DNA from: Roseovarius mucosus DSM 17069
GTDB lineage: Bacteria; Pseudomonadota; Alphaproteobacteria; Rhodobacterales; Rhodobacteraceae
Direction of reading: 5' to 3'
Length of the DNA: 64,000 nucleotides
Assembly (NCBI RefSeq): GCF_000768555.3
Contig: NZ_KN293977.1
Location: forward strand, 119,901 to 183,900
The notes under the pieces were generated by a model that had not been told where the DNA came from, made no database searches, and was given only the letters and a program-made list of their open reading frames with translations. Every line of letters starts with the position of its first letter. Position 1 is the stretch's first letter. A program made the position numbers and the translations under genes. Shown piece by piece: positions 7,997 through 45,617 of this stretch.

Positions 7997-8238
7997 TCCG
8001 TGCCGGGGCAACCCGGGTAGGATATTGCGGCTGGATCCGGGCTTTCCCGGTTCCGGCCAAACCTGTCTCAGAGAGGCCCTGCACTAACCGGGGTTTTTCT
8101 AAGGCGAGGTTTACACGATCGGGAGGTCATCATTGGGACGATGACCATGAATGGATCAAACCCAGCCGTCTCGGATGGACGCGGTGCTGAGCCCCAACAG
8201 CGCGCGCGACCGGTGAGAAATGAAAGGTGACATCGACC

Positions 8239-42212: not shown

Positions 42213-44102
42213 ATGGGATACACTGAGGTTTACGAGCGATCGCTTGCAGATCCCGAAGGCTTTTGGATGGAGGCGGCAGAGGCGATTGATTGGGTGAAGA
42301 TGCCCAGTAAGGCGCTGTTTGACGGGGCCGCCCCGCTCTATGAGTGGTACAAGGATGCCGAGGTCAACACCTGCTGGAATGCGGTGGACCGGCATGTAGC
42401 GGCAGGGCGCGGCGCGCAGACCGCGATCATCCACGACAGCCCCGTGACCGGCATCAAGCAAAAGATCAATTATTCGCAATTACGCAGCCGCGTGGCGCGG
42501 CTGGCGGGGGCGCTGCGGGCCAAGGGCGTGGAAAAGGGCGACCGCGTCATCATTTATATGCCGATGGTGCCCGAGGCGCTGGAGGCGATGTTGGCCTGCG
42601 CGCGGCTGGGGGCGGTGCATTCGGTCGTTTTCGGCGGCTTTGCCGCGCATGAGCTGGCGGTGCGGATCGACGATTGTCAGCCCAAGGCCATCATCGCCGC
42701 CTCTTGCGGGATCGAGCCGGGACGAGTGGTACATTACAAGCCGCTTCTTGACGGGGCCATTGAGCAGGCCGCGCATAAGCCCGAGTTTTGCGTTATCTTT
42801 CAGCGCGAAGAAGAAGTGGCCAAGCTGATCGAGGGGCGCGATTTCGACTGGCACGCGTTCCAATACGGGGTGGAGCCGGCGGAATGTGTGCCGGTATCGG
42901 GCGATCATCCGGCCTATATTCTCTATACCTCAGGCACCACCGGCGCGCCCAAAGGCGTGGTGCGGGCGACGGCGGGGCATCTGGTGGCGCTCAACTGGTC
43001 GATGAAAAACATCTATAACGTGAACCCGGGCGAGGTGTTCTGGGCGGCCTCCGATGTGGGCTGGGTCGTGGGGCACAGCTATATCTGTTACGGGCCGCTC
43101 ATTCATGGCAACACGACCATTGTGTTCGAGGGCAAGCCGGTGGGCACGCCCGATGCGGGCACCTTCTGGCGGGTGATGTCCGAGCACAAGGTGCGCAGTT
43201 TCTTTACCGCGCCGACAGCGCTGCGGGCGATCAAGCGCGATGATCCCAAGGGCGAGTTGATCAAGAATTACGATCTGTCGCAATTGCGCGCGCTCTATCT
43301 TGCCGGAGAGCGGGCCGACCCGGACACAATCGAATGGGCACAGCGCGTGATGCAGGTGCCGGTCTATGACCATTGGTGGCAGACCGAGACCGGGTGGGCC
43401 ATTGCGGGCAACCCTGCCGGGCTGGAGGCGCTGCCGGTCAAGATCGGGTCGCCCACGGTGGCGATGCCGGGCTATGACGTGCGGATTCTGGACGAGGGCG
43501 GGCATGAGGTGGCACCGGGCACGCTGGGTGCGATTGCGGTGAAATTGCCGCTGCCGCCGGGGACGCTGCCGACGCTGTGGAATGCCGAAGCGCGCTATCG
43601 CAAGTCCTATCTCAACACCTTCCCCGGCTATTACGAGACGGGCGACGCGGGGATGAAGGACGACGATGGCTATCTGTGGATCATGGCGCGCACCGATGAT
43701 GTGATCAACGTGGCGGGGCACCGTTTGAGCACCGGGGCGATGGAAGAGGTTCTGGCCAGCCATCCGGACGTGGCCGAATGTGCCGTGATTGGCGCGGCGG
43801 ACGAGTTGAAGGGGCAAACGCCGGTCGGATTCCTGTGCCTGACCAAGGGCGTCAACCGGGCGCATGACGAGATCGTCAAGGAATGCGTCAAGCTGGTGCG
43901 CGACCAAATCGGCCCGGTCGCGGCCTTCAAGCTGGCGGTGGTGGTGGACCGTCTGCCCAAGACACGCTCGGGCAAGATCCTGCGTGCCATCATGGTCAAG
44001 ATCGCCGATAGCCAAGAGTACAAGATGCCGGCGACGATCGACGATCCCGCCATTCTGGACGAGATCAAGATCGCCCTGCAAAGCCTTGGTTTGGCACGGT
44101 AA
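42213..44102 (+). CDS. prpE: Propionyl-CoA synthetase
   Basis: The 629-residue protein is an AMP-forming acyl-CoA synthetase of the PrpE type: MGYTEVYERSLADPEGFW at the start, the ATP-binding loop YILYTSGTTGAPKGVV, WWQTETGW, GYYETGDAG, and the C-terminal hinge and lysine motif LPKTRSGKILR. It activates propionate to propionyl-CoA in the cytoplasm. GGAGGAG precedes ATG 42213. The upstream TTTGCAAA boxes point to control by a short-chain acyl-CoA regulator. Acetyl-CoA synthetase is a relative, but the PrpE wording is clear. Confidence 0.92.
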   Translation: MGYTEVYERSLADPEGFWMEAAEAIDWVKMPSKALFDGAAPLYEWYKDAEVNTCWNAVDRHVAAGRGAQTAIIHDSPVTGIKQKINYSQLRSRVARLAGALRAKGVEKGDRVIIYMPMVPEALEAMLACARLGAVHSVVFGGFAAHELAVRIDDCQPKAIIAASCGIEPGRVVHYKPLLDGAIEQAAHKPEFCVIFQREEEVAKLIEGRDFDWHAFQYGVEPAECVPVSGDHPAYILYTSGTTGAPKGVVRATAGHLVALNWSMKNIYNVNPGEVFWAASDVGWVVGHSYICYGPLIHGNTTIVFEGKPVGTPDAGTFWRVMSEHKVRSFFTAPTALRAIKRDDPKGELIKNYDLSQLRALYLAGERADPDTIEWAQRVMQVPVYDHWWQTETGWAIAGNPAGLEALPVKIGSPTVAMPGYDVRILDEGGHEVAPGTLGAIAVKLPLPPGTLPTLWNAEARYRKSYLNTFPGYYETGDAGMKDDDGYLWIMARTDDVINVAGHRLSTGAMEEVLASHPDVAECAVIGAADELKGQTPVGFLCLTKGVNRAHDEIVKECVKLVRDQIGPVAAFKLAVVVDRLPKTRSGKILRAIMVKIADSQEYKMPATIDDPAILDEIKIALQSLGLAR

Positions 44103-44103
44103 T

Positions 44104-44137
44104 AAAAAAGAGGGTTCCGGAGGAAGCCGGAACCCTC
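44104..44137 (-). terminator. Rho-independent terminator pointing to the minus strand
   Basis: GAGGGTTCCGG (44110-44120) and CCGGAACCCTC (44127-44137) form an 11-bp stem with a 6-base loop. The six A bases at 44104-44109 are a T6 tail on the minus strand. On the plus strand the stem is followed by ATCCCCC with no T-run, so the signal does not fit prpE. It must end a transcript coming from the right on the minus strand. Confidence 0.75.
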
Positions 44138-44325
44138 ATCCCCCAGAAGGGACGCTGGAAGAAATGCTGTCTGGCGCGACGCACTCACAACGCCAGGCCA
44201 GACAGCGTAACCGGCCGATAAATACCCGTCATGAAGACCGGGTGGCACTTGACCGGTGTATCCCGCCAAAAAGGGTAAGGGATTGCGATATGAAAAGGGC
44301 TTGGGACACCCCTACACGCGAGATA
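44104..44325 (-). ncRNA. Candidate small RNA between prpE and the CRP-type gene
   Basis: An RNA of about 200-220 nt is inferred from the minus-strand terminator at 44104-44137. Its body contains the stem GCTGTCTGGC/GCCAGACAGC (44166-44175 with 44197-44206). A possible -10 CATAAT (minus strand, 44333-44328) lies with a TGTGA-N6-TCACA site centred about 45 bases upstream of the inferred start. That is close to the spacing used by activating CRP proteins. The loop of the terminator exposes CTTCCT, which could pair with ribosome-binding sites. No protein frame fits. The 5' end is a guess. Confidence 0.4.
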
Positions 44326-44359
44326 CCATTATGGTATGGCCGGTTGCGCGTGCAGATTC

Positions 44360-44375
44360 TGTGAGGCACCTCACA
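44360..44375. promoter_or_regulatory. Perfect CRP-type operator (TGTGA-N6-TCACA)
   Basis: TGTGA (44360-44364), six bases, and TCACA (44371-44375) match the CRP consensus exactly. The symmetry extends to a 22-base inverted repeat at 44357-44378. It ends 28 bases before the start codon of a Crp/Fnr-family gene whose recognition helix (SRESVNR) keeps the Arg-Glu-x-x-x-Arg set that reads TGTGA. It may serve autoregulation and the divergent minus-strand RNA. Confidence 0.7.
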
Positions 44376-44403: not shown

Positions 44404-45078
44404 ATGTCAATTGAGGCCGCACCGGAGCGGAGGGCGCGGGGGCTGGCCGGAATTCTGGAGCGGCATGGCCGTGCGGTCGATTATCCCAAGGGCCGGATGA
44501 TCTATGCCACGGGTGCCCAGGACAGCACGATGATGCTGATCACCAAGGGCCGGGTCGAGATCAGCCGCAGTTCGGTCGATGGGCGACGCTCGATCCTGAC
44601 GCATCTGGGGCCGGGGGATATGCTGGGCGAGCTGGCGGCGCTGGATGGTGGCGCCCGGAGTGCCGATGCCGTGGCGGCAACGACAGTGCAGGGGCGCGTT
44701 CTGGAGGGGGCGCTTGTCCTGCAACGCCTGCGCGAGGAACCCGATGCCGCGCTCGACGTGATCGGCATGCTGTGCCAACGGCTGCGCCAGACCTCGGGGA
44801 TGTATACCGCGCATATGCTGGCGGATGGTCAGGCGCGTCTGGCGCGGCTGCTGTTGCACCTGTCTGAGAAATGGGGCGAGGCCCTTCCGGGGGGCAAGCT
44901 GCGTCTGGCGGAGCGGTTTTCGCAATCCGATCTGGGCGATCTGGTGGGGCTGAGCCGTGAGAGCGTGAACCGGCAATTCAGGGACTGGGAACAGGCCGGG
45001 GTCATCGCGCGCGAGGGCATGGGCATCGTGCTCTGTGATCCGGGGGCGCTGGCACGGGCGGCGGAGATGGCGGAATGA
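44404..45078 (+). CDS. Crp/Fnr family transcriptional regulator
   Basis: The 224-residue protein has a cyclic-nucleotide-binding-like beta barrel (about residues 25-115, with YPKGRMIYATGAQDSTMMLITKGRVEIS and GDMLGELAALDGGARSADAVA) and a C-terminal winged helix. The recognition helix reads LSRESVNRQFRDWEQAG. It has no N-terminal Cys cluster, so it is not an iron-sulfur Fnr. The Arg-Glu-Ser-Val-Asn-Arg pattern is CRP-like. GAGGAG lies upstream. The stop overlaps the start of the CIA30 gene by four bases. Whether it binds cAMP is not decidable by eye. Confidence 0.88.
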   Translation: MSIEAAPERRARGLAGILERHGRAVDYPKGRMIYATGAQDSTMMLITKGRVEISRSSVDGRRSILTHLGPGDMLGELAALDGGARSADAVAATTVQGRVLEGALVLQRLREEPDAALDVIGMLCQRLRQTSGMYTAHMLADGQARLARLLLHLSEKWGEALPGGKLRLAERFSQSDLGDLVGLSRESVNRQFRDWEQAGVIAREGMGIVLCDPGALARAAEMAE

Positions 45079-45617
45079 AATGGATTCTGGCTCTGGTTCT
45101 GGGATTGATGGCGGCACCCGGCGTGGCACAGGAGGGCGACATGCGCGATTACACCCCACCCGCGTTAGAAACCTGGCGCTATATCAGCGATCAGGTGATG
45201 GGCGGTGTGTCCGAGGGGCAGGCGGAGATTGCGGGACCCGAGGGCGCGCGGCATTTGCGCCTGACTGGAACCGTCAGCACGGCCAACCGGGGTGGGTTCA
45301 TTCAGGTGCGGGGAGATTTGCTGACGCCGCTACCCAAGGGCGCGCAAGGCGTGGTGGTGCGTGTGAAGGGGAATGGTGAAGGCTATTTCATCCATTTGCG
45401 CACGCGCGGCACGGTCCTGCCCTGGCAGTATTATCAGGCCCCGATTCCGAGCGGGCCAGAGTGGCAAGAGCTGCGCGTGCCCTTTACCGCCTTTCGCGCT
45501 TCGGGGGCGATGCTGCGTGATGTGCCACGGGCGGGCGATATCAAGAGCCTGGCGGCGGTGGCCTATGGGCGGGATTATGAGGCCGATCTGTCGTTCGAGT
45601 GGATCGGCGTTTATTGA
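45075..45617 (+). CDS. Exported CIA30-domain protein
   Basis: The 180-residue protein has a signal peptide (MKWILALVLGLMAAPGVAQ). A CIA30 (complex I intermediate-associated protein 30-like) galactose-binding-type fold follows, with WRYISDQVMGGVSEG, TANRGGFIQVRGDL, WQYYQAPIPSGPEWQELRVPFTAF and the ending LSFEWIGVY. In bacteria this domain is exported and of unknown role. Its start codon overlaps the stop of the CRP-type regulator (ATGA), so the two are co-translated. Confidence 0.8.
   Translation: MKWILALVLGLMAAPGVAQEGDMRDYTPPALETWRYISDQVMGGVSEGQAEIAGPEGARHLRLTGTVSTANRGGFIQVRGDLLTPLPKGAQGVVVRVKGNGEGYFIHLRTRGTVLPWQYYQAPIPSGPEWQELRVPFTAFRASGAMLRDVPRAGDIKSLAAVAYGRDYEADLSFEWIGVY

Follow-up and report, generated by a model that had tools for sequence, protein, structure and literature searches.

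A small RNA (sRNA) gene that stands divergently from the gene of its regulator has a precedent in the GcvA-GcvB pair of Escherichia and Yersinia, in which the regulator, GcvA, belongs to the LysR family. CyaR and Spot 42 are CRP-regulated sRNAs of enterobacteria, and to our knowledge neither their genes nor those of CsrB and CsrC lie next to crp. CsrB and CsrC of Salmonella are likewise described as CRP-regulated sRNAs (PMC7591399), and GcvB homologs are described as sharing a similar predicted structure despite variation in sequence (PMC1557403). Here we analyse a window of 64 kb from Roseovarius mucosus DSM 17069 (contig NZ_KN293977.1, positions 119,901 to 183,900; all coordinates below count from the first base of this window), and in particular the gap between a prpE-like gene and the gene of a CRP-family regulator, for which an original prediction made from the sequence had proposed a minus-strand RNA under a CRP-type site. 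We consider it likely that the minus strand of this prpE-crp gap encodes a CRP-controlled non-coding sRNA of about 223 nt, divergent from its regulator. Four observations in Roseovarius carry the proposal: the predicted structure, an apparent bias toward the minus strand, a constant spacing of operator and presumed start, and linkage with the CRP-like gene. Comparisons of genome sequences thus support the original prediction, with covarying helices, an excess of G-U over A-C, terminators of the same shape and a fixed distance all pointing the same way.

As in the GcvB homologs, the predicted structure is similar among relatives despite variation in sequence, and all 11 Roseovarius loci show the divergent arrangement of regulator and predicted RNA. 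The regulator here is of the CRP family whereas that of GcvB is of the LysR family, and the likeness is one of predicted architecture, with no sequence relation claimed. The enterobacterial CRP-regulated sRNAs are under CRP-cAMP, as would be the RNA proposed here, which unlike them lies beside the gene of its putative regulator.

Predicted fold and its conservation

The minus strand of the interval 44326-44104 folds with -103.4 kcal/mol (z -7.1, none of 200 shuffles being as low), the minimum-energy structure is identical to the centroid, and the predicted layout is one of four hairpin domains followed by an intrinsic terminator (Table 1). The original prediction had rested on this terminator, an 11-bp stem with six T on the minus strand, which was found as described, and on a long-range stem, and it had put the length at about 200 nt. 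The long-range stem is present and is redefined as the 9-bp helix P1, whose arms lie 51 bases apart in the window, and the RNA itself, for which comparison supports the minus strand, would measure about 223 nt. A simple terminator scan yields one site against 0.9 expected by chance in 1.5 kb, so that by itself the terminator does not exceed chance; what is beyond chance at this locus is the fold of the interval and its conservation.

Conservation was measured in an alignment of 11 loci, in which helices P1-P3 comprise 31 pairs and 341 cells, the sequences being related and the cells not independent. Pairing is kept in 96.5% of the cells and falls to 31-41% when the partners are slid by 1-3 columns. 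The covariation sought in relatives was found, as two-sided changes occur in 13 of the 31 pairs compared to a shuffled mean of 5.7, and the covariation score is 0.324 compared to 0.224 in shuffled alignments, with 0 of 500 shuffles as high in either case. One of five covariation measures is not clear, namely that of further pair types (27 versus 24.7 shuffled, 41 of 500 as high), which together with the relatedness of the sequences weighs against our proposal, as do the points on the promoter, on one locus of another genus and on the strand that are raised below. Given the same alignment, RNAalifold returned P1-P3 unprompted, together with one short helix inside P1 and another inside P2, and with two-sided changes in 16 of 41 pairs. 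The best structural evidence is that of P1: in the window its predicted arms are GTATCTCGC/GCGGGATAC, in G024 GCGTCTTGT/ACAGGACGC and in G462 GCGCTTCAG/CTGAAGCGT. The GUGAGU of the P3 loop is kept in 11 of 11 Roseovarius loci. In the 5' domain, the CCCAAGCCCUUUU stretch (window 44293-44305, minus strand) is identical in nine of the 11 and changed in G024 and G462.

The covariance model R1 matched 11 of 84 Roseovarius genomes, our own included, with E values of 6.6e-29 or better, a recovery that is expected as R1 was trained on these same 11 loci; the window, itself a training sequence, scores 172 bits at 44326-44166. At all 11 carrier loci the predicted RNA lies in the gap between prpE and the CRP ortholog. 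A DNA query taken from a relative matched 10 of 84 genomes of the genus, each time between these two genes, and a terminator-proximal query matched 7 of 60 (both counts include our own genome); the eleventh carrier, G462, whose CRP is 55% identical, was added after protein searches. The other 73 Roseovarius genomes gave no R1 match or weak ones only (five, at 14.6-18.2 bits). A CRP profile found 12 of the 84 genomes, and the 11 in which the ortholog and prpE are neighbours are the 11 RNA carriers, a co-occurrence that does not amount to 84 independent observations because the carriers may largely form one clade. The twelfth, G026, is 36% identical, its locus lacks prpE and it has no RNA match.

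Beyond the genus, R1 gave weak matches in 15 of 394 genomes of the family besides the window's own (best 29 bits), and a DNA search of the same 394 gave three weak matches outside the genus, none with prpE or CRP in the stretch; these wide searches used strict filters and scored few candidates per genome (7 candidates for R1 in the family genomes, 34 for R1 in the genus genomes and 2 in the family DNA search), and a copy that has diverged may have escaped them. Among the weak R1 matches whose stretches were inspected (L101-L107, seven of the 15 in the family, and L127, one of the five in the genus) there was no prpE, CRP gene or perfect operator, and a search of a plasmid collection returned no match.

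Operator, presumed promoter and proposed mechanism

The perfect CRP-type site of the original prediction is the single occurrence of TGTGA-N6-TCACA in the 64 kb window, where 0.01 would be expected, and all 11 Roseovarius loci have the operator in perfect form. The regulator encoded next to it is a member of the CRP/FNR family, with a cNMP-binding domain (PF00027) and a Crp-type helix-turn-helix (PF13545) both above cut-off, and its closest solved structures are CRP/FNR-family regulators, the top ones being presumably those of CRP of Mycobacterium tuberculosis. The RESVNR stretch of its recognition helix does not vary among 10 orthologs, and we take this helix to be of the type that reads TGTGA. 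From this CRP-type recognition helix we infer that the adjacent CRP-like protein binds the operator.

In class II CRP promoters the operator is centred near -41.5. In all of the 11 loci but G495, P1 begins at base 42 from the operator centre (minus strand); in G495 it begins one base sooner. Relative to the presumed start this puts the centre at -41.5 in the 10 and at -40.5 in G495. A start at 44326, give or take a few bases, is better placed than one about 45 bases from the centre of the site, as had been suggested. The possible -10 that had been suspected could be assigned to a hexamer, CATACC in the window, which in relatives reads CATACA, AATAGT, AACAGT, CATAGT and the like at the same place relative to the operator; all 11 Roseovarius loci have an A at its position 2, and in nine a TGN precedes it. 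The window's own hexamer is weak, has no TGN and is uncertain in position by 2-3 bases, and a sigma-70-like promoter scan of the locus found none. Across 21 loci there is an A at base 31 (hexamer position 2) in 17, a G at base 28 in 17 and a G at base 42 in 16, and the pattern is much weaker in the 10 loci of other genera, where TGN occurs in one and the A at base 31 and the G at base 42 in six each.

We propose that the CRP-like protein, probably together with a cyclic nucleotide, would bind the shared operator and recruit polymerase in the class II manner, so that the RNA would start at about 44326. As the operator ends 28 bases before the crp start codon, the protein would probably adjust its own gene through the same site. 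With less confidence, we suggest that the RNA may act in trans by base pairing via the GUGAGU loop, the CCCAAGCCCUUUU stretch or both, the conserved loop and the stretch being candidate pairing sites, and that such pairing may extend the reach of the regulator after transcription. If this is true, Roseovarius, a marine genus, gains a probable sRNA of carbon control for which a candidate activator can be named, with a presumed promoter and a fold tested by covariation, and CRP-like control after transcription becomes directly testable in this genus.

Of the alternatives, the one that fares best, though we regard it as unlikely, is that the RNA is real and the operator serves only the autoregulation of crp, the RNA being under another promoter, constitutive or otherwise controlled. 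The weakness of the -10-like hexamer would agree with this, and CRP homologs that have no upstream GTGAGT hairpin (L084, L087, L090, L091) are likewise preceded by a perfect operator, from which it follows that autoregulation may predate the RNA. An operator used by crp alone is harder to reconcile with the distance from operator to RNA, which does not vary among 10 of the 11 Roseovarius loci, and with the A at hexamer position 2 in all 11, and we favour control of the RNA by the CRP-like protein.

Table 1. Predicted and annotated features of the prpE-crp gap and its flanks (window coordinates)
Feature	Position	Strand	Basis or remark
Predicted small RNA, ~223 nt	44326-44104	-	fold z -7.1; covariation; covariance model match
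P1 helix, 9 bp	5' arm 44326-44318, 3' arm 44266-44258	-	two-sided changes in 7/9 pairs; 96% of cells paired
P2 hairpin	44257-44210 (arms 44257-44251, 44216-44210)	-	two-sided changes in 4/7 pairs; 93.5% of cells paired
P3 hairpin, GUGAGU in loop	44206-44166	-	98.2% of cells paired; two-sided changes in 2/15 pairs
P4 hairpin	44162-44139	-	from fold and alignment; sequence confined to the six closest loci
Intrinsic terminator	11-bp stem 44137-44110, loop of 6, U6 tail 44109-44104	-	terminator scan
Presumed transcription start	44326	-	first base of P1; operator centre at -41.5
-10-like hexamer CATACC	44333-44338 (bases 30-35 from operator centre)	-	same place relative to operator; weak
Operator TGTGA-N6-TCACA (TGTGAGGCACCTCACA)	44360-44375, centre 44367.5		between RNA promoter and crp gene; predicted site of adjacent CRP-like protein
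prpE-like acyl-CoA ligase gene	42213-44102	+	convergent with predicted RNA; Pfam AMP-binding
CRP-family regulator gene	44404-45078	+	divergent from predicted RNA; Pfam PF00027 and PF13545

Loci in other genera and the P3 loop

Homologs of the CRP-like protein were found in 20 of 394 genomes of the family, our own included, some of them near prpE. Ten prpE-near loci from five genera were compared (L080, L068, L081, L139, L085, L136, L137, L138, L088 and L082); L135 has the same sequence as L068 where printed, and the prpE of L082, about 1.6 kb away, was judged from match L067. Three of the first six loci (L080, L085, L068) have a strict GAGUG-loop hairpin, which shuffled sequences reach in 2-9% per locus and which the plus strand lacks in all. 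A prediction that the GAGUG-loop hairpin would stand 145-190 bases from the operator edge was fixed before further species were viewed, and in that range a GTGAGT hairpin was found in all four new non-duplicate loci (L136, L137, L138, L139), the one of L139 having a stem of 5 pairs only and a loop of 11, with a second such hairpin outside the range, at 57. Taken together, nine of the ten loci have GAGUG 151-173 bases from the operator edge on the same strand, and the hairpin is strict in seven (L139 being counted by GTGAGT); in L081 and L082 the motif is present but its stems are weaker, and in L088, where prpE, crp and the operator are all present, the motif is missing at the predicted distance. 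The corresponding distance of GTGAGT in three Roseovarius loci is 171-179 bases. Stems of different genera have unrelated sequences, as have those of L085 and L136-L138, which belong to one genus and are not independent. A further 18 loci with CRP homologs have no prpE in the stretch, and many differ in context; none of them has a GTGAGT hairpin within 800 bases, and a GAGTG scan covered four of them. A terminator directed toward prpE was found by scan in four of the ten loci (L137, L138, L081, L139); in L085 the scan settled on the P3-like hairpin itself, and in others terminators are visible by eye only.

We tentatively raise the possibility of an RNA family that several genera of the Rhodobacteraceae share, linked to a single CRP-like regulator and defined by its architecture and not by the sequence of its stems, that is, by a promoter beside the operator, a 5' domain often with CCCUUU (by eye) and a near-constant GUGAGU/GAGUG loop on rewritten stems. 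The loop might then be an old pairing seed or a protein-binding site for a fixed partner, and regulator and RNA one inherited unit. The weakness of the promoter pattern outside Roseovarius somewhat lowers the probability that we give to this reading. The constant loop on variable stems would be a concrete handle in the search for a partner.

A further alternative, slightly less probable in our estimate than an operator that serves crp alone, is that the RNA binds a protein through its constant P3 loop, as a sponge or with the CRP-like protein itself as the ligand, and does not act by base pairing. Such a role would suit a loop core, GAGUG, that is kept while the stems differ completely between genera. 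A pairing seed, however, predicts a constant loop equally, and the loop, which reads AGUGAGUGA and UUGAGUGG in other genera, is no constant copy of a TGTGA half-site.

Two explanations of the loop were tried and rejected. A copy of the TGTGA half-site is not kept in other genera, and pairing with the crp leader, where CUCGCA before the crp start of the window could pair by eye, was dropped as other leaders differ.

Several details of single loci were noted. CCCUUU-like runs in the 5' domain recur by eye in other genera. In L085 a GUGAGUG P3-like hairpin is followed by CTTTTT and is itself scored as a terminator, so that a shorter form of the RNA is possible, and in L085, L136 and L137, judged by eye, CUCAC of the 5' domain may form a pseudoknot with the loop. 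At L067 2501-3886, which seems to be identical to L082/L099, two CRP paralogs stand in tandem behind a single perfect operator, at about 1.6 kb from prpE, and a GUGAGUG motif lies upstream. The CRP ortholog match of L137 (G503) contains one in-frame TAA.

Strand and coding potential

That the hairpins are plus-strand elements, belonging to the 3' end of prpE or the leader of crp, or palindromes at the DNA level, with no minus-strand RNA at all, strikes us as very improbable. Inverted repeats are symmetrical, and the plus strand of the same stretch also beats its shuffles (z -5.6); four carriers give weak mirrored plus-strand R1 matches (24-31 bits at carrier loci), and the terminator of G010 scores on the plus strand too. 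G-U nevertheless exceeds A-C on the minus strand, and since a G-U there reads A-C on the opposite one, the minus strand appears to be the strand kept folded: the 341 cells of P1-P3 divide into 289 Watson-Crick, 40 G-U, 3 A-C and 9 other, a count biased toward the minus strand in that these helices were picked from the minus-strand fold. The strand-neutral parts give 10 G-U (five in the outer P3 stem, five in the terminators of the 11 loci) against no A-C, from few events. Terminator scans of the 11 Roseovarius loci find a minus-strand site in 10 and a plus-strand site in one; that of G462 is missed on the minus strand by the scan and present by eye, where it also looks plus-strand-like. The terminators differ in sequence and keep their shape among relatives, as in the second subclade, whose terminator has a different sequence and the same form. 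Covariation between P1 arms 51 bases apart likewise argues against this alternative.

Least probable of all is a transcript that encodes a small protein, for which speak short ATG/GTG frames in each of the 11 species and against which speak the lack of any frame kept in position, length and sequence across them and the indels inside P2 and the P3 loop. The gap had been described as 301 bases without a minus-strand protein gene; its length, from the prpE stop (44102) to the start of the CRP-family gene (44404), is as given, while open reading frames exist there mechanically on the minus strand (43670-44269 with a TTG start, for example), and among ATG/GTG frames inside the RNA, none is kept in position and length over the 11 species.

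Relation to known RNA families

suhB/mmgR is an sRNA of alphaproteobacteria. Its family RF00519 has a weak likeness to the predicted RNA over P4 and the terminator, without reaching P1-P3, and was rejected at 23.8 bits, far under its gathering score of 41, as was RF00236 ctRNA_pGA1 at 25.7 bits versus 45. Matches to Rfam at the locus are sub-threshold only, and no family reaches gathering level at 12 related loci. The open-access literature, judged from listings, some of them partial, and with subscription journals and supplements outside the scope, yielded no description of the RNA and, by title, no study of Roseovarius sRNAs; the main text of a Ruegeria sRNA paper (PMC4809877) does not mention prpE, propion, Crp or Roseovarius. 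Because no Rfam family reaches threshold and no description was found in the open-access literature searched, we count the RNA as a new family within the known type of regulator-linked sRNAs.

Neighbouring genes and other elements of the window

The prpE-like protein scores 711 bits versus the cut-off of 955 of the NCBIfam propionate-CoA ligase equivalog and so falls below it. Directly after the CRP-like gene, and overlapping its end by 4 bases, lies the gene of a CIA30-domain protein (PF08547, window 45075-45617, plus strand). Elsewhere in the window, a Rhodo-rpoB RNA (RF03074), a known cis-regulatory family, is matched with 75.8 bits at 8116-8208 on the plus strand.
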